From Niastella koreensis GR20-10 (GTDB lineage: Bacteria > Bacteroidota > Bacteroidia > Chitinophagales > Chitinophagaceae), in assembly GCF_000246855.1 (NCBI RefSeq), contig NC_016609.1, positions 1,612,001-1,676,000 on the forward strand: a stretch of DNA of 64,000 nucleotides, given 5' to 3'. This document shows positions 9,643 to 54,301 of the stretch, one piece after another; the stretch's first letter is position 1; each line of letters opens with the position of its first letter. The notes under the pieces were generated by a model. It was not told the origin of the DNA, searched no databases, and saw nothing but the letters and a program-made list of their open reading frames with translations. The translations under genes were made by a program, and so were the position numbers.

Positions 9643-12600
9643 ATGAGAAAAGCAAAACTGCTTATGGGCATTGCCATGCTCATAAGTCATTTCCTCTTTG
9701 CAAGGCAAGCTGGTATTACTGGTAAGATCACCGATTCAAAAGACGGAACTCCCATTGCAAATGCGACGGTAAAGGTAAAAGGCGGTGGCGCTACAGTCAC
9801 CGACCCCGATGGGATGTTTACCTTGCCTCATGTGGCTGCCGGCGCCACGCTGGAAGTTTCTTCCATTGGTTATTTAACCAAAATGGTGAAAATTGTTGCC
9901 GGCAAAACCATCTCCATCCAGTTGAATTATGATCCTAAATCGTTAAGTGAAGTAGTAGTTACCGGTGTAGGTGTTGCCACCAGTAAAAAGAAGATAGGTA
10001 TCTCGGTTGAAGCGATTACCGCAGACAAACTACCGGGTGTGCCGTCCGGCTCCATCGATCAGGCGCTGGTGGGTAAAATAGCCGGTGCACAAATCAGCAG
10101 TGTAGACGGAACGCCTGGTGCACGCACGAATATTCTTTTGCGTGGTATCAACTCACTGCAGGCCGGTACCCGTCCCATGATCCTGATCGATGGTATTGAA
10201 GTAAGAGCCACCGACCTGAGCGCCCTTGACCTGAGTAATGTAGAACGGGTGGAAGTTGTGGAAGGCGCTGCTTCCGCAACTATTTACGGTGCGCAGGGGG
10301 CCAATGGCGCTATACAGATCTTTACCAAAAAGGGAAAAGCCGGTAAGATCAGTATTGATGTATCGAGCAGCTACGGTATCGGCACTTACCTCAATACCGG
10401 AAATCTGCATAAGCCCTCCACCCATGGTTTTAAAACCGATGCCAATAACAATGTGGTAGATAATAACGGGGTTATCATCCAGGTTAAACCAGACGGCACC
10501 TATACGGCAGGCGTGAATATCGATGGCATTACACAGGGCGGCATTGTATGGAACAGCACCTCACCCAACACAGACGGCAGCAAACCTTATGGCCAGAACC
10601 TGAAGTATTATGATCACTTCAAACAATTGTTCCGTTCTGCCGCCACCATCAATAACAGTATCAGCGTATCTGGAGGCGCCAATAAAACTGATTTTGCCTT
10701 AACTGCTTCCCGTTCCTATCAGGAAAGCGCTATAAGGAAGAATGGGGCGCTCAACCGGTACAATTTTACTTCCAACGTGGGCACCGAGCTTTTTAAAGGG
10801 TTCAAATTGCGCTCCATTACGCAGCTGATCTACCAAAAGAACAATTTCAATCCCTATTATGCAGGTGGTAGTGATGCTATATACCAGATGTTGAACAGTT
10901 CGCCTTTCTTTGATCTCAACTGGAAGGATGCCAACGGCGACTATGCCTACCGGCTCAATGCAACGCCCGTAAGTATCAACGGCGCCAACCCCAATTACTA
11001 CTTCGAGTATGCACAGGGCACCGATGAAACTGTAGACATCATCCAGAATATCCAGGCGGCTTACCATGTCAATCGCTTTTTGGACCTGGAAGCCAAATAT
11101 GGTATCAACTATGAAAAAGAAGACATCGCAAATATTTATAAAAACCAGTCGCAGAATATCAATGCGCTTAGCAGAAGCGCTTTTATCGGCGGCTTCAGCT
11201 CCAATGCCGGCGGGCTTTCCAATACTACCAACACTACTACCTTCCAAAATGCATTGACGTCGGCCACCTTCCATTTAGATCTTGATAAAGAGCTTCACAT
11301 AAAGTTGCCGATTACGTCTACTACTTATGCCGCCTATGACTATCGCAAAAATGTTTATAAACAATATACCACTACAGGCGATGCGCTGCAGTTATACCCG
11401 ATCTACAATATGCGGCAGACCAATACGCAGCAGGTGACTGTAGATACAAAAAAGCCATTTGTGACATTTGGCTGGCTGGTTGACCAGGCATTTGATTATG
11501 GCAGCATTGCCGGGATAAAAGCCGGGTTAAGAAGTGATTATTCATCAACTTTCGGGCGGGGAGCAACACCTCAGACCTTTTACCACGGCAACGGTTATCT
11601 GCGGGTTTCACAATTTAATTTCTGGGAAGGCCTTTCGGGAATTATTCCCGAGTTCAAGCTTCGTGGCGGTTATGGTGAAGCGGGTATTCAGCCCGGTGCT
11701 TTTGACAGATATGTGGTATTATCAACCAAAAGTATCGGCAGCGCATTGGGGTTTTATACACCCTCTACCCAAAGTAATCCCGACCTGCGCGTAGAGATCT
11801 CGAAGGAGACGGAGATAGGGACCGATGTTACTGTAAATCTGAATAAAGGAGAATGGTTTTCCAGCCTGGGCATAAGCTCTACTTTCTGGAAAAGAAAAAG
11901 CAAAGATGTGATCTATGCAGTAGATGCGCCCCCTTCATCCGGTGGTGGCAGCTATCTTACCAACGCCTTTTCCCTGTCATCTAACGGGTTTCAGTTTTCG
12001 CTAAACCTGAATGTGGCGGCTACCAAAAACCTGACATGGGACTTTACCACTACCTTCGGACATCAAACTTCTAAGATCGATGCCGTATCTACCAACCAGG
12101 ACATTGTATTAACTGCTTCTGCCGGCAATACCAACCTGGTATTAAAAGCTGGTGATAAAATAGGACAGATCTATGGATTGAAAGCTTTCACCAGTGTAGA
12201 GCAAACGCGCAAAGACGGCAGCTCCTATATCAATAAAGCCGATGCAGGTAAATACCAGCTGGTGAATGGCTACCTGGTTGATACGGCTACCCGGGGCATT
12301 ATGTTTACCAACGAAACCTATGCGCTGGGTGATCCTAATCCCAAATTCAACGCTTCATTTATCAACAGTATCCGGTTTAAAGACTTTATCACCCTTGCGT
12401 TCCAGTTCGACTGGATTTACAAGAGTCATTTGTATAACCAGACCAAAGAATGGATGTATCGCGATGGGATACACGGAGATTTTGGGGATAAAGTAACCAT
12501 CAACGGCCAAACGGCTGCCTTCTCCAATTATTACATCAGCGCCTATTCCGATATGTGGGGAAGTATAAACGGTGCACGCAATTCTACCAAGGATTATTTC

Positions 12601-18601: not shown

Positions 18602-19795
18602 ATGAAATATTCTATCGCATTGTTCGCTGTTTTTTCCCTGTTTGGCGCCGGCCAGGCTGTTAACGGGCAAACAAGCCTGGACCGCATCGATCCCCGGCCG
18701 TTTGGTGACAATTCAGGCCACTGGTATATGGGCAAGGACGATAAACGCATGATCAATCCCATGCCCGGCAAACCGCAGTATCAGCCCAATCAACTGGCTG
18801 AGATCGGCGATAACATCATCCTTTTTCAGAAAGACAATGGAGGCTGGCCGAAGAATTACGACTTCTTTGCTATTTTGACCGATGCCCAGAAAGATTCAGT
18901 AAGCAGAAAGCATAACGAATTAAATACCACATTCGATAATGGAACCACGTATACCCACATCGCCGCGCTTTCGATTATTTATAAGGCCACTCATGTTGAA
19001 AAATACCGCGATGCGGCGATAAAAGGACTGCACTTTTTGTTAAAGGCCCAATATGATAATGGCGGCTGGCCGCAATATTATCCCATCGAGAAGAACAATT
19101 ATAGCAGTGAGATCACTTTTAACGACGGCGCTTTTAATGGCATTATGGTGTTGCTGCGGGATATGATCAATAAAGCACCACAATACGATTACCTGGATGC
19201 GTCAGACCGCTTGAAAGCTGAACAGGCCTATAACAAGGGCATTGACTGTATCATTAAAACGCAGATCAACGACGCGGGTGTTCCTACGGCCTGGTGCCAG
19301 CAATATGATGAGCGTACGCTGCAGCCTGCCTGGGCCCGGAAATTTGAACCGCCAAGTATTAGTAATGGAGAAAGCGCCGACGTGGTCCTTTTCCTTATGA
19401 ATATCGATCATCCCGAACAACGCGTGATCGATGCTGTACAATACGCGGTGAAATGGTTTCAGGACTCGAAGATCTACAATACCCGGGTTGACGTTATTCC
19501 TGCTCCCAGAATGGAAACGCCGTTCCGCACGTCCACTACTGACCGGGTAGTGGTGCGCGATACAACAGCTGCGCCCATCTGGACACGCTATTATGAACTG
19601 AAAACGCACAAGCCGCTGTTCTGTAACCGGGATAGCAAAGTAGTTTATTCACTGGCCGAAGTTGACCGGGAAAGACGTGATGGCTATGCGTGGTATACTT
19701 ATGCCCCACAAAAAGTATTAAACAAGTATCACGACTGGCAAAAGAAATGGTCGCCCGGGAAGGATGTGCTGGCCAAAATCGGGTCAGGTTACTAA
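18602..19795 (+). CDS. pelA: Pectate lyase, polysaccharide lyase family 10
   Basis: 397 residues with signal peptide (MKYSIALFAVFSLFGAGQAVNGQ). It cleaves de-esterified homogalacturonan by Ca-dependent beta-elimination. The PL10 (alpha/alpha)-toroid signature is present as two related elements, KDNGGWPKNYD (about residue 78) and YDNGGWPQYYP (about residue 150), plus ATHVEKYRDAAIKGLHFLL and the C-terminal RRDGYAWYTYAPQKVL stretch. No carbohydrate-binding or sorting domain is attached, so it is probably periplasmic or released. It stands alone with its own promoter and converges on the DUF3179 gene, whose stop codon overlaps its own. Confidence 0.93.
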   Translation: MKYSIALFAVFSLFGAGQAVNGQTSLDRIDPRPFGDNSGHWYMGKDDKRMINPMPGKPQYQPNQLAEIGDNIILFQKDNGGWPKNYDFFAILTDAQKDSVSRKHNELNTTFDNGTTYTHIAALSIIYKATHVEKYRDAAIKGLHFLLKAQYDNGGWPQYYPIEKNNYSSEITFNDGAFNGIMVLLRDMINKAPQYDYLDASDRLKAEQAYNKGIDCIIKTQINDAGVPTAWCQQYDERTLQPAWARKFEPPSISNGESADVVLFLMNIDHPEQRVIDAVQYAVKWFQDSKIYNTRVDVIPAPRMETPFRTSTTDRVVVRDTTAAPIWTRYYELKTHKPLFCNRDSKVVYSLAEVDRERRDGYAWYTYAPQKVLNKYHDWQKKWSPGKDVLAKIGSGY

Positions 19796-20990: not shown

Positions 20991-21761
20991 TTATGCCCTA
21001 TAGGCACTGGCGATAGCGTCCCATAATTTTATCCGGTGTAAAAGGGCATTCTTTACTGCATCGGTGGCCTCTTGCCATTTTGCTGCGTCGGTGCCGTTAA
21101 GCGCTGACGTCATTTTATAGGCCAGCTGAGAGTGGTGTTCGCCATCTACCTCAATATGCCGCTCCAGGTAGTATTTTAACGTACTGAATTTATTGTCCGT
21201 TTGTTTGTTCAGTTCACTTACAAAAGTGATAAACATGCCAGGGATAAGATCTTCTCTTCCAAAAGTAAAAACGGCTGCCTGAACGTGAGGTTTGTTGCTA
21301 TTTACTACAGCAAACGTGCTTTGAACGAAATCAGCTGAAGCCAACGGCGTTTTGGCGGTATGAAGGCTATCTGTCAGGGATGCTTTTTTCTTCAGACTAT
21401 TGATAAACGTGTTGATCGGATCCAGGTTGCAGCCCGCTTCTTCCATGGCTCTTAAATACAACTCGAAATGACTGGTGCGGTTGCCCTGTTCATCTATGTC
21501 AGATTCTTCGCCCAAAACGATCTCATTGATCAGGTACCTGGTTTGCGCATTTCCCACAGGTACCCAGGGAAGTTCAATGCCGGTAAGATTGCGCTGGAGC
21601 GATTTCAACAGGGACATAAAATCCCAGACAGCATAAACGTGGTGCTCCATGAATGTGCTCAGCCGGTTGATATTATTGGTTTCGGCATACAAAGGATGTT
21701 GGATCAATTGCTGGCGCAAAGGTTCAATGTCACGCCTCAATGCATTCAGGTATTCGCTCAT
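20991..21761 (-). CDS. DUF3050 family protein, possible heme-oxygenase-like diiron fold
   Basis: 256 residues from the ATG at 21761, which gives the usual family start ([20 protein letters not shown]); 21779 is an alternative. All-helical, no signal peptide, so cytoplasmic. Clustered acidic and histidine residues occur at about 39-41 ([12 protein letters not shown]) and 200-210 ([14 protein letters not shown]). This resembles ligand patterns of heme-oxygenase-like oxidases, but that is inference from spacing alone. The family assignment is firm; the reaction is unknown. Its upstream region carries the first copy of an 83-bp repeat. Confidence 0.85.
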
Positions 21762-21804
21762 AGTTTTTAAAAGGCGCAAAGATATATAATCGGCAATAGT
21801 ACAT

Positions 21805-21887
21805 ACATTTTAATGTTCCATAAGCAGCATAACCCGCATTTCGACGGCCTTACCCTTATAAACAAGATAAAAATGACCAATAAGAAA
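21805..21887 (+). repeat. 83-bp direct repeat, left copy
   Basis: Begins ACATTTTAATGTTCCATAAG and ends ATGACCAATAAGAAA. It matches 23116-23198 in the same orientation with about 4 mismatches, all in a short central stretch. It lies just upstream of the DUF3050 start on the minus strand. Confidence 0.95.
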
Positions 21888-21896
21888 TTGCGGTCT

Positions 21897-21940
21897 CCTT
21901 GCTTTCGGGTAACGAAGAAAAGACAAAAAGAAATCGTACA
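21897..21940 (-). pseudogene. Remnant of an FtsX-type permease gene
   Basis: About 44 bp are nearly identical (roughly 41 of 45 positions) to 17599-17643 inside the intact permease gene, the part encoding YDLLLSFSSLPESK. Here a single-base deletion splits the frame (YDFFLSF / SSLPESK). It probably marks loss of a paralogous permease gene. Confidence 0.7.
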
Positions 21941-22570
21941 GGCTTACTAACCGCATTTTAAAAGTAACACCATCAAGTTCTACAGCTTATGTGCGGGAAG
22001 GCAGTGGAATGTACTCAGTTTGTATAAAAACTGGCACCGGCGGCCTCTTACGCAAAGCGAAATACACTTATTATGGCCGCAAGCGGTTGGGAATGGTGAC
22101 AACTCATGAGGGACAGGATGCTGTGGTAGTGCAGGGGTGCGGCTTCAACAACGGAACAAGTAGTACCTGTACACGTGGGGAAAAGAAAAAGCCAGTATAG
22201 ATCAAATCGGGAAAAGTTTAAATATTACACATGTAATTTCTTTTTGGGAGATTAGTAATAGCATAACTAACAGTCATATGAGAGGTCATGCCGATGTTGG
22301 AATTGGAATGCGTGCTAATATGTTTCAAAATTTTAAGATCAGTGATGCTTGCAACCGTAGTCCTTTTCAAATTCCTTCGGATACAATTTGTTTTAATTTC
22401 TAACATCCTGAAACTCTCCTCTCATATTTCAATTTACCAATCCCATAAAACATTTAGCTGGCCCAATAATTCGTTTTGCTTGCTCCGTAATCGTTTATAA
22501 CACGTACATAATTAAGTCACTACCTCCGCGATTAACCCGGTACGCTGCTCCCACCTACACCTAGCCTCCC

Positions 22571-23110
22571 ATTTTTACTTTAATACTTCCAAATTCAAAA
22601 ACTATCCTCCACAATTTTAGTGCAAGGCAGCAAATTCTATTTGGAACTCCAGCAATTTTTGCTGAAGCCTGAATAATTTTACTTTGGGACTGCCTATTTC
22701 AATTTTAGGTGATCCGTGCTATATATATCAGACCAAAAGTTAGTTCATGCCTTCCAAAAGTTTCCAGGCAGCCACAAAAAGTTTGTAGACCCCTATAAAA
22801 AATCGATACGAGGCTAGAAAAAATCACCTGGAAGCTTCCAAAAGTTAAAATGATGGTTGCCCAAGTAATTTTCAACTTCGCCTAAGGAATTTTGAACCTG
22901 GCTCAACCTATTGGGAGAACAGCACAATTAGATTGGCGCATCGGGCAATCTATATTGAACTTCCTGGGTGCTATTTGCCTCCTCAGACAATGCAAAGGCG
23001 TCACCCGAAATACTATTCCTGTCATCCCAAAAGCTGAAGTTGCCAAACAATAAGCGGAAGTAGTAAAAAAAATATCATTTCCCTAATAAAATAATCCTCC
23101 CCGCAAATCC
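22571..23110. repeat. Phased AT-tract array, about 21-bp period
   Basis: Short A or AT cores recur every 20-22 bp, separated by unique GC-richer stretches that often end in CC. AATT or T-tract cores start at 22571, 22592, 22613, 22633, 22654 and 22675. A-runs start at 22735, 22756, 22776, 22797, 22818 and 22840. AATTTT occurs at 22867 and 22888, and AAAAG returns in phase at 23029. Spacing of two helical turns would give strong intrinsic curvature. Units are not conserved enough to be a CRISPR or minisatellite. Confidence 0.65.
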
Positions 23111-23115
23111 TGCCC

Positions 23116-23198
23116 ACATTTTAATGTTCCATAAGCAGCATAACCCCCGGTTCAACGGCCTTACCCTTATAAACAAGATAAAAATGACCAATAAGAAA
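23116..23198 (+). repeat. 83-bp direct repeat, right copy
   Basis: Same-orientation copy of 21805-21887, placed about 100 bp upstream of the SusC 2 start. Matching is resumed a few bases beyond the end (GGTCT in both), so the ancestral repeat may have been slightly longer. Confidence 0.95.
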
Positions 23199-23301
23199 AG
23201 GCCCGGTCTTTTCAGGATGGTACAGGATGGCTCAGGATGATTTTAGCATCAGGAAAGGATAACTTACTAATGCTTTTGTAAAATTAAACCGAACTGCTAA
23301 T

Positions 23302-26300
23302 ATGAAACAAACGATTGCTTGCAAGCGACATGTCATACTCATGTCGCTTCTGAATCTCTTTGCTATTTTTTCTTTCGCGCAAACCAATTTCCCCGTAACC
23401 GGTAAAATTACAGACAATGCTGGCAGCCCCCTGCAGGGTGTTACTGTGCAGGTAAAGGGCGGCAAAGTAGTGACCACTACGGCTGCGGATGGAACTTTCT
23501 CCCTTCACGCGCCATCCGGCACATCCATTCTTGTTCTTAGTTCGGTTGGGTTTATTACCAAGGAAGTACCCATTGAAAACAAGGAACAGTTAACGATCAC
23601 CTTAAGCACGGCCGATAACTCGATGGACCAGGTGGTGGTTATTGGTTATGGCGCCGTAAAAAAGAAAGATGTAACAGGGGCTGTTACTGGTATTGGTGAA
23701 AAAGACATTAAGTCAAGACCGGTAGATAATGCCCTGCAGGCCATGCAGGGTAAAGTAGCTGGTGTTGATATTGCTACATCAGAACGTCCCGGTACGGTAG
23801 GTACAATTAACATCCGGGGTGTACGTTCATTAACAGCTTCAAATTCACCCCTGTATGTGGTTGATGGGATCCCCCTTATGACAGGAGGGATCGAATACAT
23901 CAACCCCAGTGATATTGAGTCCATCGATGTATTGAAAGACGCTTCGGCAACGGCCATTTATGGTTCCCGGGGCGCCAATGGGGTAGTGATAGTTACCACT
24001 AAACAGGCCAAGGCCGGCAGAACCTCCCTGAATTTGAACCTGAGTACAACATCTGAAAAACTGATTGACCGGGAGGACATGTTCAATGCCTCCGATTATA
24101 TAACTTTTCGCCGCTGGGCCAGGTATTACCAGGCCCCGGCCACCTATGCGCGTGGTGACCAACCCACTATTGCCAATGATAAAACCATCTTCCTGGCCAC
24201 CAGCGACCCCACAGCCTGGGCAAATATTCAAAAAGGCTGGGCCTCCGGAACCTGGGACGGCTCAAAGGTGGCCACTACCGACTGGCGGGGAATGGTTACT
24301 CAAACCGGCATCACCAAAAACCTGAATATGAGCGTGAGTGGTGGTAGTGAGAAAGCAAAAGCCTACGCTTCATTCGGCTATTTAAATAATACCGGTACAA
24401 CAAAAGGACAGAGCTATACCCGGTATACAGTTAATGTGAATGGTGATGTGAATGCCACCAAATGGCTTCAGTTCGGTACTAACCTTACGGTATCGTACAT
24501 GAAACAGGAATTCGGGCAATCCAAAATAGGTGCTACCACCGTGTCTTCCTCAAACAGCCTGTATGAATCTGCCAGGGCCCTGTTTCCTTATGCGATGCCT
24601 TATGATTCTGCCGGAAACCGGATCTACAACCCCGGTGGCGATATTGCCTTTAAAAATGTAGCCAACGAGTGGAATTTAAACCAGGACCAACGGGTAACGC
24701 TGCGCGCTTTTGCCAGTATTTACGGACAGATTGACCTGGGCAACATTCTCCCGGTTTTAAAGGGTTTAAAATACCGGTTGAATTTCGGTCCGGACTACTC
24801 CAACTACCGGGATGGCACTTATATCGATGCCAATTCGGTTATCAGCAGCGGCTCCAATTCTGCTTCGCTTAACAAACAGCAGACGTTCTCTTATACCCTC
24901 GATAACCTGGTGTATTATAATAAGACCATCGGCCGTCACGACATTGGAGTTACTTTACTGGCCAGCCAGACTAAATTTACAAGTGACAGTAGTTATATTT
25001 CTGCTAACGGTATTCCTTTTGGCAGTCAGAAATGGAATGCGTTATCGAAAAACTATATTCCCGCAGCTAATTTAACAGGATATGCATCGGGTTTGCTCGA
25101 AAGCCAGTTGCAGTCGTTGATGGCCCGCATCAACTACAGTTATAACGACAAGTACCTGTTAACTGTTTCTGCCCGCCGTGATGGCGCCTCCATGCTGGCT
25201 GAAGGGCACAAATATTCCTGGTTCCCTTCAATGGCCATTGCCTGGCGCATCAACAATGAAGACTTTATGAAAAACGCCACCTGGGTAAATGACTTTAAAT
25301 TGCGGTTGGGGGTAGGAACTACCGGTAACTCGGCCATCAAACCATACGCTACCCAAGGTGCTACCACCTCGCTCTTTTATCCATTTACCACATCCACAAC
25401 CGTTATTACGCCCGGCGGTATTCCCCCGGCTACCTTTGCCAACCAATCGCTGGGCTGGGAAAAGACCACGCAATATAACCTGGGTATCGACTTCTCCGTG
25501 CTGAACAGAAGGGTCTTCGGTAGCCTGGATCTGTATAAATCAAGAACCACCGATCTGCTGGTGCAGATGTCTATCCCCACTGTTACCGGTTATACAAACA
25601 CCTTTGCCAATGTGGGCGAAACCAGGAACAAGGGAATGGACCTGAGTTTAACAACGGTCAATATAAACAGAAGAGACTTTACCTGGACAACCACTATGAG
25701 TATCTCCTGGCAAAAAGATGAGATCGTTTCCCTCTCCAACGGCAAGCAGGACGATATCAATAACAACTGGTTCATTGGCCAGTCGATAGGAATGATCTAT
25801 GGGTACCAGAGTGCAGGCATCTGGCAGGTTGCCGATTCAAACACGTACAGGGCATATAATACGAAAGGGAAAACCAATTTTTCACCTGGTAATGCCCGGC
25901 CGAAAGATATCAATGGCGATACCCTTATTGACGCCAACCACGACCGCGTACTTGTTGGCAATTCAAGACCAAGATGGATTGTGGGTATGACCAATACCTT
26001 CACCTACAAAAACTTTGAATTGTCCGTCTTCCTGTATGGCCGGTTGAAATATACCTATAACACAGGTGGCGAAGCAGAAGTTGCCCGTGGTACACAACGG
26101 TCGATCAATTATTGGAATGATAATAATATGCACGCAGATTACCAAAAGCCTATCTATTCTGAAGGAAGCGGCGATTCTTACTATGTGGTATTAGGTTATA
26201 AGAGTGGCTCGTTTATCAAGATCCGCAATATCTCGTTAGGGTATACGCTCGATCACAAAGCGTTAAAGACAAATGCGATCTCCAGCTTAAAAGTATATGC

Positions 26301-26412
26301 ACAGGTGGTGAACCCGGCAATCCTGTTTTCAAAGGTCGGCTGGTTGGATATGGATACACAATCGCCTGTCTATAACAGGGGCATCACCTTTGGTATAAAC
26401 GCAGCATTTTAA
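23302..26412 (+). CDS. SusC/RagA-type TonB-linked outer-membrane receptor 2
   Basis: 1036 residues. Signal peptide ending SLLNLFAIFSFAQ, CarbopepD-regulatory-like domain (about 32-112, GKITDNAGSPLQGVTVQVKG), TonB-box-like DQVVVIGYGAVKKKDVTGAV, plug with PLYVVDGIPL and TAIYGSRGANGVVIVTTK, then the barrel. The plug motifs are close to textbook for the family and close to those of receptor 3, less so to receptors 1 and 4. SusD 2 follows 30 bp downstream. The gene begins just after the repeat-bounded non-coding segment, whose right repeat falls in its promoter region. Confidence 0.96.
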   Translation: MKQTIACKRHVILMSLLNLFAIFSFAQTNFPVTGKITDNAGSPLQGVTVQVKGGKVVTTTAADGTFSLHAPSGTSILVLSSVGFITKEVPIENKEQLTITLSTADNSMDQVVVIGYGAVKKKDVTGAVTGIGEKDIKSRPVDNALQAMQGKVAGVDIATSERPGTVGTINIRGVRSLTASNSPLYVVDGIPLMTGGIEYINPSDIESIDVLKDASATAIYGSRGANGVVIVTTKQAKAGRTSLNLNLSTTSEKLIDREDMFNASDYITFRRWARYYQAPATYARGDQPTIANDKTIFLATSDPTAWANIQKGWASGTWDGSKVATTDWRGMVTQTGITKNLNMSVSGGSEKAKAYASFGYLNNTGTTKGQSYTRYTVNVNGDVNATKWLQFGTNLTVSYMKQEFGQSKIGATTVSSSNSLYESARALFPYAMPYDSAGNRIYNPGGDIAFKNVANEWNLNQDQRVTLRAFASIYGQIDLGNILPVLKGLKYRLNFGPDYSNYRDGTYIDANSVISSGSNSASLNKQQTFSYTLDNLVYYNKTIGRHDIGVTLLASQTKFTSDSSYISANGIPFGSQKWNALSKNYIPAANLTGYASGLLESQLQSLMARINYSYNDKYLLTVSARRDGASMLAEGHKYSWFPSMAIAWRINNEDFMKNATWVNDFKLRLGVGTTGNSAIKPYATQGATTSLFYPFTTSTTVITPGGIPPATFANQSLGWEKTTQYNLGIDFSVLNRRVFGSLDLYKSRTTDLLVQMSIPTVTGYTNTFANVGETRNKGMDLSLTTVNINRRDFTWTTTMSISWQKDEIVSLSNGKQDDINNNWFIGQSIGMIYGYQSAGIWQVADSNTYRAYNTKGKTNFSPGNARPKDINGDTLIDANHDRVLVGNSRPRWIVGMTNTFTYKNFELSVFLYGRLKYTYNTGGEAEVARGTQRSINYWNDNNMHADYQKPIYSEGSGDSYYVVLGYKSGSFIKIRNISLGYTLDHKALKTNAISSLKVYAQVVNPAILFSKVGWLDMDTQSPVYNRGITFGINAAF

Positions 26413-26442: not shown

Positions 26443-28395
26443 ATGAACACAAAGAAAATAATATATAGTATATCGCTTCTGGCAGGGTTGATTGCGATGG
26501 CATCCTGCAAGAAAGATTTCCTGAACGAGACATTGACTACCGACAGGAACCTGGAGTATTTTAAAACCGATGCCGGCATTCAGGCATTGGCAGTAGGTAC
26601 TTATTACCAGGTGTTTGCTTTGCCATTTGCTTCTGAGTGGGCTTATTGTACAATGAACTATGGGGTGGATGAGTTTATGGTAGGCGGCGACCCTTCCAAT
26701 GGTTCCTGGAACAACTACGATGCAGGATACAAATCGATAGTTACCATTAATAACGGTAATACGGCAACAGCCAATGTGCAATGGGATACCTTGTATACCG
26801 GCATCGGCGATGCCAACCTGTTGATAAAAAATGCCACTGCCAGCACCTCTACTTCAGATGTTATTAAAAAACAATCGTTGGGCGAAGGATATTTCTTCAG
26901 GGCATATTGCTACCTGCACCTGGTTTCACAATACGGCGGCGTGCCGCTGAAGACAGAGCCCAGCACCACGATTGAAAAGGAATTTACCCGGGCAACACCT
27001 GAAGAGGTGTACAAACAGATCATCGATGATTTTAAACAGGCCTATAACCTGTTGTCCAATGGAAGTTCGCCCGCAAGGATCACCAAAGATGCGGCAGCAC
27101 ACTACCTGGCAAAAGCCTACCTTTTCCGCGCCAGCGAGATCAATGATTCCTGGAACTCAGCTTACAAAGCTGCCGACCTGGCTGCGATTGTGCCTTTGTG
27201 TGACGAAGTAATTTCTCACCATCCGCTCACGCCCCAGTTTGCAGACCTTTGGAAATATACCGGTCCGGACGCTGCTAACGAAAAGCTGCAGGAACTGATC
27301 CTCTCGGCGCAATTCACGGCCGATGTTTCTACCAACGGCGCCAATACCCAGCACCTGTACTGGGGATCCCGTTACGACGATATTTCCCAAATGCAACGTG
27401 ATATTACCGGCGACCGGCCATTCAGCCGTTTGCGCACCAATTATTATATGTTCAGGATCTATGACCAGGTTAATGACTCCCGGTTCTGGAAAAGCTTCAG
27501 AACAAAATGGCGGTTGAATAAATCTGCCGGTTCTTACTATGTAAACGGCGATCTGGGCATTATGTTTGTCATCAATCAGCCTGGCGATAACCGCTTTTCT
27601 GCATACAAGCTGAACGATGTGGTTACGTATAGTAAAACAGGTAAAACCATTCCGAACGTATATGTTGCCTTTCCTACCGGAGTAAATACCGATGGCGCCA
27701 TGTTGGTTGACGTGCGGTTCCCTTCTTTAAGCAAACATTTGGATGGGTCAAGGATAGCATTGAATGAAACCCGGGGTTTACGGGACATGAACCTGGCCCG
27801 CTCCGCAGAAACTTACCTCATGGCGGCTGAAGCCAAGGTGAGGCTGGCAAAGCTGGGGACCGGCGCGTATACCGATGCTCTGACTTATATTAACCCGGTG
27901 AGGGCCCGCGCCCAATATGTATCCGGGGAAGATCGTTCCGCTTATTATGATGGCGGTAATGCGCAGGGAACATCCGGTCAAAGCCCTGCCATCAATTCCT
28001 TCATCGCGGAGAACTCCTATTACGAGTCGAATAATATCGCGGTTACCACGGCTGCTTCCAACAGCCTGGCTATTACAAATATCAATGCCCTGCCAGCTGG
28101 TGATGAATATGTGATCTCCAGGTTGGGATTAACCGGTGATTATGACAGAATGATGGCGCTGGTGCTGGACGAACGTTCAAGAGAACTGGTAGGTGAATAC
28201 AAACGCTGGGAAGACCTGTCGAGAACAAAAACACTGGTATCGAGGGTAAAAGCATTTAATACTCAGGCAGCGCCTAACATCAGGGACATTCACGTGCTGC
28301 GGCCAATTCCGCAAACATACCTCGACGGTATCCAGTTAAACGGTAAGGCATTGTCGGCCGATGAAAAACAATCGCAACAAAATCCCGGATTCTGA
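26443..28395 (+). CDS. SusD/RagB-type surface glycan-binding lipoprotein 2
   Basis: 650 residues, lipoprotein signal with lipobox at AMASC. The long SusD form shows the helical core (GEGYFFRAYCYLHLVSQYGGVPL around residue 150) and the C-terminal binding/TPR region, LVLDERSRELVGEYKRWEDLSRTKTL near residue 570. Length suggests extra surface loops compared with SusD 1, typical of proteins binding larger or branched oligosaccharides. It pairs with receptor 2. The stop codon is followed with no gap by an inverted heptamer-repeat element, then a terminator. Confidence 0.95.
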   Translation: MNTKKIIYSISLLAGLIAMASCKKDFLNETLTTDRNLEYFKTDAGIQALAVGTYYQVFALPFASEWAYCTMNYGVDEFMVGGDPSNGSWNNYDAGYKSIVTINNGNTATANVQWDTLYTGIGDANLLIKNATASTSTSDVIKKQSLGEGYFFRAYCYLHLVSQYGGVPLKTEPSTTIEKEFTRATPEEVYKQIIDDFKQAYNLLSNGSSPARITKDAAAHYLAKAYLFRASEINDSWNSAYKAADLAAIVPLCDEVISHHPLTPQFADLWKYTGPDAANEKLQELILSAQFTADVSTNGANTQHLYWGSRYDDISQMQRDITGDRPFSRLRTNYYMFRIYDQVNDSRFWKSFRTKWRLNKSAGSYYVNGDLGIMFVINQPGDNRFSAYKLNDVVTYSKTGKTIPNVYVAFPTGVNTDGAMLVDVRFPSLSKHLDGSRIALNETRGLRDMNLARSAETYLMAAEAKVRLAKLGTGAYTDALTYINPVRARAQYVSGEDRSAYYDGGNAQGTSGQSPAINSFIAENSYYESNNIAVTTAASNSLAITNINALPAGDEYVISRLGLTGDYDRMMALVLDERSRELVGEYKRWEDLSRTKTLVSRVKAFNTQAAPNIRDIHVLRPIPQTYLDGIQLNGKALSADEKQSQQNPGF

Positions 28396-28493
28396 TAGTG
28401 AGTAGTGAGTAGTCAGTAGTGAGTATGGCTCGCTATTTTTCAAGAGTCTTGTAATGTCGGTAACCCACTCACTACTCACTACTCACTACTAAC
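28396..28493. repeat. Heptamer-repeat palindromic element, copy A
   Basis: Four 7-bp units, mostly TAGTGAG, begin at the base after the SusD 2 stop (28396-28423). A 40-50-bp core follows, then reverse-complement CTCACTA units (28468-28488). Copy B at 48341-48434 has the same arms and a related core (shared CTCGC, GTCT, TCGG, AACCCACTC). Confidence 0.9.
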
Positions 28494-35618: not shown

Positions 35619-35776
35619 CAAGGCAACGAGGCATAAAGGCATAAAGGCAACGAGGAAAACCTGCTGTAAGCTGAACGTCCATAAAGAGGTACATAGTCAA
35701 ATGAGCTGAAAGTGTAGACCGTTCCCTTTGTCTTTATGCAGCTTCTATGCCTTTATGCCTCGGCCCCTCGCTCCCT
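35619..35776. repeat. Octamer-repeat palindromic element
   Basis: Immediately after the regulator stop codon, 8-bp units run GGCAACGA, GGCATAAA, GGCATAAA, GGCAACGA. About 90 bp later the reverse-complement arm TCTATGCC, TTTATGCC, TCGGCCCC occurs (35743-35766). Same layout as the TAGTGAG elements but with a different word and unit length. Confidence 0.8.
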
Positions 35777-48340: not shown

Positions 48341-48434
48341 CAGTAGTGAGTAGTGAGTAGTGAGTAAACTCGCGAATATTCGGGTGTCTGAAAAATCGGA
48401 AACCCACTCACTACTCACTACTGACTACTCACTC
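48341..48434. repeat. Heptamer-repeat palindromic element, copy B
   Basis: Three TAGTGAG units (48344-48364), a core of about 40 bp, then reverse-complement CTACTCA units reaching 48434. The right arm provides the last codons (Met-Ser-Glu) and the TAG stop of the GH78 gene on the minus strand. Confidence 0.9.
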
Positions 48435-52760: not shown

Positions 52761-54301
52761 GTTAATTTGGTTTTCTGGTGTATGATAATGGTGCTGATAA
52801 GCACGAGGAGACAAAGGCAGACGGGTAGGGCAGGAAAACGCACGGCAATGGTTTCAATAGTATTGGGACGAATAGTAACCAGGTCAGTTTCATCAATGCG
52901 GCCCGATGCATTCACAAGACCGCTCCGGCCATTGTTGCTGTTAATGGCAAGGTCTTTACGGGTTTCCACCGCTCTTACCCGTGCATTATAAAAATGACTG
53001 TTTACGAGATAGGTATTCCGGAACCATCCATCGTTGCTCAGGTTCAACAGAAATTGCGCACCCTGCCGCACCGTGGTGGCCGCGGCTGATGGCAATGCCG
53101 ATTCATTACAGATAAGGATCCCTGCTTTTCCATAGGGCGTATTCAGGGGGAGGTTATTATTGCCAGGTTGTACCGAGTAGCCGTTGGCCGAAAAGAAAGG
53201 GAGTAGCCAGCCCTGCAGGGGTTGTTCAATAAACAGCAAGGGTGTTGCTTTATCATAACGGCCTGCCAGCTTTCCACCGGGCAACAAACAATAAGCCGAG
53301 TTCCCAACAACGTCCTCCGCAATCGCCGTGTTTATGCCCAGGATATGCGAGATCTGAGCAGGATCGGAGTTATGCAGCAGTTCCTTTACCAGGTCATCAT
53401 TGGGCGAGTAGGTCCACGGAATGGCCGACTCAGCCCATAAGATTACATTGGGTTGTTGCGCTATGCATTGCTTTTCTTGCTGCAACAACTGTTGCACCAG
53501 GGCATTGCCATTTTGCTGATCCCATTGTACCTCGGGCGGAATGTTTGGTTGAAGGATGGCCAGTTTAAAAGTGGCTGCCTGGGTGTTGTTGTCCCCGCGT
53601 TCAAACAAAAACAATAACAACCAGCCCCAGCACATAAAACAGATGAATAACGACAAGGGAAGTAACAGTTGTTGATAGCGGCGTTGGGCCAATGCTTTTG
53701 CAACCAGACAATTCACTAACACAATTACAAAGCTGCACCCGGTAATGCCGATCACCGATACCGGTTGAATGGCATACAGATTGGCCGAAAGAGAATTACC
53801 TATATGAAATAAGAACCAGGGCAAACTACCCGCCATCCATTGCAACACCACTTCTGCAAGTGCCCAAACGGAGGCTATAAAAAATGGATTAGGGATGCGA
53901 AATGCGATCCATAAAACACCCGCACAAGCAAAGGAAAAAAGCACAACACACAAAAGGAAAATCGCCATGCCATAACCAATAGACAAACCGGTAAATGAAG
54001 GAATGCCTTTAATCATCCACGCAAAAGCACAGCACGAAAAGCTTCCACCTAAAACAAGTCCGTTGAAAAAAATGCCGCGTTGGTGTTGCCGCGTCGGGGT
54101 GTATTGCTTGTAGCCTGAAGCTTGCAGCTTGCGGCTTGTCGCTTGCGGCTTACCGCTTACAGCTTGCAGCTTATAGCTGAAGATCGGGAGGAGTACCGGT
54201 ACGAGCGCTATCCAGCCCATAAGAAATACGGCTTGTTGCACAGCAACAAACAGGCATAAGCCAGCGATAATAGCTCCTCCAGGTGCGGCGTAACGGTTCA
54301 T
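52757..54301 (-). CDS. lnt: Apolipoprotein N-acyltransferase
   Basis: 514 residues. Inner-membrane enzyme that N-acylates the lipid-modified cysteine of lipoproteins. Multi-pass N-terminal half (about 1-210), then a periplasmic nitrilase-like domain with the catalytic triad visible as Glu in WAESAIPW, Lys in RYDKATPLL and Cys in ILICNESALP (the family usually has CYE). A C-terminal helix follows. Residues about 40-66 are a 7-residue periodic stretch (SYKLQAV, SGKPQAT, SRKLQAS, GYKQYTP) encoded by a DNA heptamer tract at 54104-54180 and not seen in normal family members. It overlaps the propeller gene by 4 bp. Confidence 0.93.
   Translation of the reverse strand: MNRYAAPGGAIIAGLCLFVAVQQAVFLMGWIALVPVLLPIFSYKLQAVSGKPQATSRKLQASGYKQYTPTRQHQRGIFFNGLVLGGSFSCCAFAWMIKGIPSFTGLSIGYGMAIFLLCVVLFSFACAGVLWIAFRIPNPFFIASVWALAEVVLQWMAGSLPWFLFHIGNSLSANLYAIQPVSVIGITGCSFVIVLVNCLVAKALAQRRYQQLLLPLSLFICFMCWGWLLLFLFERGDNNTQAATFKLAILQPNIPPEVQWDQQNGNALVQQLLQQEKQCIAQQPNVILWAESAIPWTYSPNDDLVKELLHNSDPAQISHILGINTAIAEDVVGNSAYCLLPGGKLAGRYDKATPLLFIEQPLQGWLLPFFSANGYSVQPGNNNLPLNTPYGKAGILICNESALPSAAATTVRQGAQFLLNLSNDGWFRNTYLVNSHFYNARVRAVETRKDLAINSNNGRSGLVNASGRIDETDLVTIRPNTIETIAVRFPALPVCLCLLVLISTIIIHQKTKLT
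54104..54180 (-). repeat. In-frame heptamer tandem tract inside lnt
   Basis: Eleven consecutive 7-bp units of the form NNGCTTG or close variants (+ strand) cover about 77 bp. Because three units make 21 nt, the encoded loop has an exact 7-residue rhythm. Confidence 0.85.

Follow-up and report, generated by a model that had tools for sequence, protein, structure and literature searches.

The nearest known system to the array described here is BrickBuilt, a minisatellite MITE of Porphyromonas gingivalis with a 23-nt unit and 19 copies in strain ATCC 33277; in the published account the consensus of 23 nt has few ambiguous letters, and the terminal inverted repeats resemble those of known insertion sequences (PMC4596501). 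The same account describes MITE464/PgRS, also of P. gingivalis, which is built from 41-nt tandem repeats and for which inverted repeats are listed (PMC4596501). Intergenic direct repeats of the heptamer TAACTGA have been described in Beggiatoaceae, Cyanobacteria and Bacteroidetes (PMC4679880), and A/T periodicity tied to the helical pitch, at about 10.5-11 bp, is a genome-wide signal in bacteria (PMC4132750, PMC3372288).

We analysed a stretch of 64,000 nucleotides from Niastella koreensis GR20-10 (the window), which corresponds to positions 1612001-1676000 of a host genome consisting of one contig of 9,033,684 bp. The window carries a tandem array at 22419..23078 on the forward strand, and this element most resembles BrickBuilt. 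As the cited account describes BrickBuilt, both belong to Bacteroidetes, consist of abutting tandem units with no spacers (23 nt versus 21), have many intergenic copies at unrelated loci, end in special segments and lack an internal transposase gene. They differ in that Niastella units were only about 30-50% alike within an array and the unit was unlike the BrickBuilt consensus by eye; moreover, terminal inverted repeats are given for BrickBuilt, whereas those of the Niastella copies were only candidates, matched at 13-14 of 15 bases in three of the 13. MITE464/PgRS, set beside the Niastella array by description and not by sequence, is likewise dispersed with a tandem core, and we note that 41 nt is close to an integral number of helical turns; it differs in unit length and in its inverted repeats. 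The TAACTGA repeats are also intergenic direct-repeat arrays, some of them long and some in Bacteroidetes, but their units are 7 bp, and the 7-bp arrays of the host are closer to them than the 21-bp arrays are (PMC4679880). The helical A/T periodicity shares the phasing of A/T with the helix, yet it is a genome-wide signal as opposed to the discrete duplicated 21-bp units of Niastella (PMC4132750, PMC3372288). The open-access literature, for the terms used, returned no article dealing with intergenic arrays of 21 bp in Chitinophagaceae, Niastella included, and no report of a helical-turn preference among unrelated arrays.

The array was laid out with a circular 21-state model trained jointly on 13 copies. 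It consisted of 31 head-to-tail units spanning 22419-23065, 27 of 21 bp and four of 20 bp (at 22482, 22586, 22627, and 22710), followed by a 13-bp tail. Since row lengths were partly set by the gap penalty of the model, the proof of units was taken from a cross-species profile instead. A first-pass annotation made from the letters had flagged 22571..23110, which took in some four fifths of the array and extended roughly 30 bp past its end. Its AT-tract coordinates stood, but the start of the array had been placed about 150 bp too late, and the apparent gap at 22675-22735 was occupied in register by the rows at 22689-22709 and 22710-22729. The right half (22719..23076, forward strand) aligned with the host copies L039, L040, and L089 and with copies of N. 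yeongjuensis. The right-end block (22979..23066, forward strand; coordinates converted from alignment columns) was best conserved between species, and the final bases of the window copy, GTAGTAAAAAAAATA, were a decayed form of the family's GTTGTCAAAAAATAA.

To the left of the array lies a gene for a DUF3050 protein (20991..21779, reverse strand; ORF and Pfam), and to the right lies an ORF at 23302..26412 on the forward strand, which we take from its sequence to be SusC-like. A repeat comparison found an 83-bp direct repeat at 21805..21887 and 23116..23198, both on the forward strand and 95% identical, with only these two copies genome-wide. The right copy extends into the SusC leader, and the pair brackets the array together with a decayed fragment at 21949..22186 (forward strand). 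This fragment had 69-74% DNA identity, with four small indels, to the C-terminal part of a gene in two relatives that we read as RHS-like. An overall inverted repeat was absent from 21500-23400. The segment had been called gene-free, and this was borne out: no ORF longer than 70 aa overlapped 22400-23115, and each reading frame of the array, six in all, contained 6 to 19 stops over about 220 codons. It had also been said to be neither a CRISPR nor a normal minisatellite. A tandem-repeat finder reported nothing over 22400-23115, in agreement with the absence of a recognisable minisatellite, and a CRISPR array was rejected on the same silence and because the units abut without spacers and neighbours were only about 46% alike.

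The proposed AT phasing of about 21 bp held against shuffled sequence. Fourier analysis of A/T gave a peak at 20.7 bp with a power of 17.1 over 22571-23110, reached by none of 1000 dinucleotide shuffles (shuffle maximum 13.3), and of 21.6 over 22400-23115, again reached by none of 1000 (maximum 11.6). Over 22560-22900 the power was 15.6, equalled by 1 of 1000 shuffles. A/T autocorrelation over 22400-23115 was 0.32 at lag 21, 0.17 at lag 42, and 0.13 at lags 62-63, versus 0.01 at lag 7 and 0.04 at lag 14 for the whole array. A side peak at 7.0 bp was seen within 22900-23115; a reading of the locus as an array of heptamers (STRR or TAACTGA-like) was rejected because a 7-bp unit was not found and the lag-7 autocorrelation was 0.01. 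As a genomic control, 55 stretches of 20 kb each (1.1 Mb) were chosen by position in the same genome, and the best 400-bp window of each was scored. The median A/T power was 10.7 (n=55), compared with 21.2 for the window array, and values of at least 21 were obtained in 2 of 55 stretches (L134, 23.8; L135, 21.1), both of which themselves carry arrays with periods of 21 or 42 bp. The 20.7-bp peak is thus not a product of chance, yet other places in the genome have one too.

The rhythm had been thought to be all that was conserved. To the contrary, the 21-bp unit itself was conserved across two species. A unit profile trained only on N. yeongjuensis copies (n=8; consensus CTTCCATAAATCAGATGATAG, 21 bp) gave the window array a per-base score of 0.066, whereas 200 shuffles scored -0.116 ± 0.012 (z 15.3); the best of 1995 other windows, from 35 stretches of the host genome, reached -0.059, so that all lay below the window array. 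The host copies L039, L040, L089, and L090 gave z of 14 to 19 under the same profile (200 shuffles each). The high score under a profile from another species indicated conservation of the unit beyond its rhythm. Training a unit on one species and scoring it in another is a simple way to discriminate worn-out tandem repeats from designed bends.

Related copies were found elsewhere in both genomes. The window array matched a second place in the host genome at 70% over 140 bp; this second place in turn agreed with a third at 81% across 367 columns. These three copies served to build R1, a sequence-only model of the right half, which was searched in 39 genomes. It found five host places (three being training copies) with E from 1e-13 to 1e-95, besides one at 0.007, and in N. 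yeongjuensis DSM 17621 it gave 13 matches, distributed over eight places (E <1e-16). Matches at E <=0.01 occurred in 8 of the 39 genomes and were weak in the six besides these two. R2, a broader model derived from 11 copies (four of the host among them), was searched in a draw of 13 genomes that did not contain N. yeongjuensis; at E 1e-4 it reported five host places and six weak ones in a further genome of the genus (G002), and the remaining 11 genomes gave none. By these comparisons the window array is one of five related places in the host, with eight more in N. yeongjuensis. Aligned stretches of the copies were 64-92% alike and their flanking genes were different; L090 had no alignment to other copies, and its place in the family came from the models.

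The neighbours of the copies offered no common partner. Pfam analysis of 20 neighbour genes of 11 copies left 9 of 20 without a family and named, among others, a Clp protease, a HAD hydrolase, RteC, a resolvase, DUF885, and a WG repeat. Read from open frames across 13 copies, neighbour strands were convergent in five, divergent in four, and tandem in four, and by our reading the right-hand frame pointed away from the array in 6 of 13 and towards it in seven. With unrelated neighbours and mixed orientation, the suggested looping or enhancer role for the SusC gene was unsupported, and we dropped it. The first-pass suggestion that fits best is that the array forms the body of a non-autonomous element not yet characterised, since related copies occupy other intergenic sites in both the host and N. 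yeongjuensis.

In a close relative (G008), R1 gave a weak match (E 8.6e-7) some 190 bp long, and R2 reported none at 1e-4. The match sits between the SusC leader and the end of a gene resembling window ORF 18602-19795, which is presumably pectate-lyase-like; in the window, two further genes, the 83-bp repeat, and the RHS-like fragment intervene in the same interval. Because a match stands at the corresponding site while the window interval holds extra genes, the array probably predates the split from this relative, and its surroundings would have been rearranged later.

Unit identity within the window array fell with distance, although not quite steadily: it was 0.46, 0.43, and 0.40 at distances of one, two, and three units, 0.35 at four and five, 0.38 at eight and twelve, and about 0.31 at 16 and 20. 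Units at the same position in two copies of one species (best of nine shifts) were 0.55 alike for the window and L039 and 0.64 for L039 and L040, higher than for neighbours inside a single array; between species the values were 0.41 to 0.50 and, for the window, no higher than between neighbours. Since neighbours were most alike and the order of units was common to arrays, local duplication would have come first and whole-array copying later. In a second array family, one whole 21-bp unit was gained or lost in L041 relative to L057 and L046. We therefore favour, with a probability of roughly 0.7, a decayed, dispersed, non-coding 21-bp tandem-repeat element shaped by unit duplication, whole-array copying, and wear by point mutation. 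The array would have grown through duplication of entire 21-bp units and, once grown, would have been copied whole to other intergenic sites, possibly by a MITE-like route; this dispersal of whole arrays is inferred from the copies. Point mutations would then have worn the units down. The rhythm outlasts the sequence because substitutions leave the register unmoved and indels are rare. Should the element have a function, two features described below, the better conserved right end (promoter-like in several copies) and the frequent dyad symmetry of units in this class, would suggest DNA-protein contact and not an RNA or protein product.

We compared indels with mismatches as a gauge of selection on this register. 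Seven array pairs, which are not independent of one another, held 11 indel events against 314 mismatches. Among the few neutral yardsticks available, two comparisons of the RHS-like fragment gave 4 indels against 57 mismatches and 4 against 68, and an intergenic stretch before SusC gave 1 against 34. Array indels thus showed no clear deficit relative to nearby decaying DNA, and the rhythm can mainly be read as a fossil of worn tandem repeats. Two findings would also fit selection on register: one array pair, 91% identical over 503 bp, had zero indels, and the pair L094 and L097 (68% identity) had gaps of 1, 1, 1, 8, 13, and 1, of which 8 and 13 add up to one unit. Mismatches did not depend significantly on phase along the unit (p 0.15, the model that assigned the phases having been trained on these copies).

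The right end of the array stood out. Between-species identity of the last four full units was 0.64, 0.60, 0.71, and 0.71, compared with 0.40 to 0.53 in the six preceding units, and values of 0.62 to 0.66 were reached farther to the left, in a block where the units are uniform. At the right end, identity between species (0.71) was about equal to that within species (0.70 to 0.76). On the 3' side of the last unit, TTG or CTG followed after 17-18 bases by TA was counted by us on the sequences of 8 of 13 copies, and a scripted search with a spacing of 18-19 bases listed four. This stretch resembles the Bacteroidetes promoter pattern and was decayed in the window copy; the promoter-like end is a lead only. 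An inverted match to the right end, 13-14 of 15 bases and 360-400 bp inside, was present in L092, L093, and L095 (3 of 13 copies). In L091, L094, L096, L040, and L039 the match was only 11 of 15, at 337-443 bp inside, a level near chance that about 8% of 100-base stretches attain, and the other copies had less. Homology often extended to the left of the inverted match, leaving no clean element end.

Arrays of similar unit length recurred in the sampled part of the host genome. A census of segments of at least 220 bp between ORFs of at least 120 aa, with a hit defined as tandem periodicity at z >=5, gave 38 hits among 231 host segments (1.1 Mb) and 0 among shuffled segments. Base periods were 7 (11 segments), 8 (3), 11 (6), 14 (1), 20 (2), 21 (14), and 39 (1), such that 22 of 24 periods above 8 bp corresponded to one helical turn or two. 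Segments with periods of 20-21 bp, 16 in all and one of them borderline (L052, z 5.3), represented about nine unit types as judged by eye with partial BLAST support. The same census gave 19 hits in 84 segments of N. yeongjuensis (480 kb; periods 7 in 12, 11 in five, 17 in one, and 42 in one), a single hit of period 7 in 12 segments of G002 (80 kb), and five hits in 128 segments pooled from three other genera (620 kb; 7 in two, then 8, 14, and 54, with none at 20-21). An earlier 700-kb scan under looser rules gave 26 non-coding hits versus 1 in a Markov control, with a less clean spread of periods (8, 9, 11, 14, 16, 21, 40, 42, 55, 60, and 80). Ten loci inspected on the lead of R2 comprised two 21-bp arrays in G002, of the same genus, six loci with five such arrays in three genomes of two other genera, and L109 and L111, which were not arrays. 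A short match led to L041, a member of the other array family, and non-coding periodicity was not found at two further short matches, L042 and L043.

Several arrays of this survey had features of their own. The second 21-bp family of the host occurs at L041 10395-10892, L133 1564-2060, L057 ~2508-2979, and L046 ~10630-11085, and its members are 80-98% alike. L134 520-800 has a 42-bp period in which a core alternates in direction every 21 bp (TTTTCAGTT / AACTGAAAA). Arrays with 20-bp units lie at L047 8240-8500, L104 8000-8250, and L050 19000-19300, unrelated to the window family by eye, and two of the three are built on GGAA/TTCC dyads. Arrays with 11-bp units occur in the host (L045, L053, L054, L128, L142, and L170) and in N. 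yeongjuensis (L163, L187, L190, L199, and L202), some of them as two halves in opposite direction. In another genus of the family (G276), L106 1482-1946 is a 21-bp array of about 150 open codons with FIEEIDQ-type heptads, a possible coiled coil.

Unit profiles were dyad-symmetric at p <0.05 in 14 of 26 arrays under a null that keeps the A/T-G/C pattern, a column-permutation null being one that would reward mere clustering of A/T columns. The combined p was 2.3e-7 over 17 families, counting the least symmetric member of each and L115 and L117 as one family; the tested arrays were picked from earlier hits, and those with units in both directions inflate symmetry. The window array gave p 0.10. 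Decay alone is no account of the 20-21 bp length in so many unrelated arrays, of the excess dyad symmetry, or of right-end identity between species that equals identity within them. We tentatively propose, at a level of confidence nearer to doubt than to belief, that Niastella has a class of gene-free arrays made from unrelated, dyad-symmetric units with lengths locked to one or two helical turns, either by a duplication machinery that works in whole turns or by selection for one-face platforms for dimeric proteins that polymerise along DNA, and that the window array is an old dispersed family of this class. If the preference for 20-21 (and 11) bp holds genome-wide, tandem-repeat length in bacteria is not arbitrary and something measures DNA in helical turns as repeats arise or are maintained; whether the preference holds is checkable by sequence comparison alone.

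A length of 21 bp is two helical turns, and on that ground the array might serve as a platform on which a dimeric nucleoid or DNA-binding protein lines up, with one dimer per two turns on one face of the helix and the register under selection. The host periods at one or two turns and the dyad symmetry across families speak for such a platform, and mismatch rates at the dyad-paired unit positions 0, 20, 5, and 15 were among the five lowest, although not significantly so. We nevertheless consider it unlikely: unit sequences vary between families, so that one sequence-specific protein does not fit, the looser scan also gave single hits at 9, 16, 55, and 80 bp, and neither the phase test, the indel counts, nor the symmetry of the window array itself lent support. 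A MITE with an internal minisatellite, BrickBuilt-like and moved in trans by a transposase, has a better claim and is a genuine possibility, though still short of an even chance. Dispersal to intergenic sites, a size of about 0.65-0.75 kb, the absence of genes, a tandem core with a conserved end, and the inverted match in L092, L093, and L095 all agree with it, whereas the near-chance match in five copies, the poorer one in the others, and the leftward homology do not.

The array had also been expected to bend DNA strongly as an intrinsically curved scaffold of phased A-tracts. A-tract coherence at 21 bp was indeed 0.41 versus 0.15 at random expectation, but it was 0.10 at 10.5 bp, and in a wedge model under one set of parameters, applied to seven arrays, the ratio of contour to end-to-end length of the window array was 1.23 versus 1.18 ± 0.07 for shuffles, 19 of 100 of which were as high. 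L039, L040, L092, and L096 were likewise shuffle-like (27 to 57 of 100 as high); in other families, L135 was curvier than all 100 shuffles and L055 was not (12 of 100 as high). Bending, as predicted here, is not the common trait of the window family, and we regard the bent scaffold as very improbable. For annotators, phased A/T tracts may be worn tandem repeats and not designed bends. Still less credible is that the array once coded for a coiled-coil protein of heptad repeats, a gene since decayed, in which 21 bp would be seven codons: the G276 array, open over its full length with FIEEIDQ heptads, gives a precedent, but stops were present in all six frames of eight copies, substitutions in seven array pairs had no clear codon-position signal, and indels of 1-3 bp occurred. 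Protein coding was rejected on these grounds, and a structured non-coding RNA was rejected since the RNA fold of the window array and L040 was no stabler than shuffles on either strand (z -0.4 to 0.1) and the array had no Rfam match. The worn, dispersed tandem-repeat element remains our preferred reading.

Other repeats were noted in the window. Three long hairpins, at 28396-28490, 48342-48433, and 35629-35760, have arms made of tandem repeats with units of 7 or 8 bp (TAGTGAG / ACTCACT, for example), and their RNA folds were far stabler than those of shuffles (z -5.2, -9.9, and -4.6, respectively). The hairpin at 28396-28490 starts directly 3' of the stop of ORF 26443-28395, which we take to be SusD-like, and all three may be terminators. 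A heptamer array of GCTTGCA with 9.6 copies occupies 54106-54182, and a period of 21 can also be read in it.
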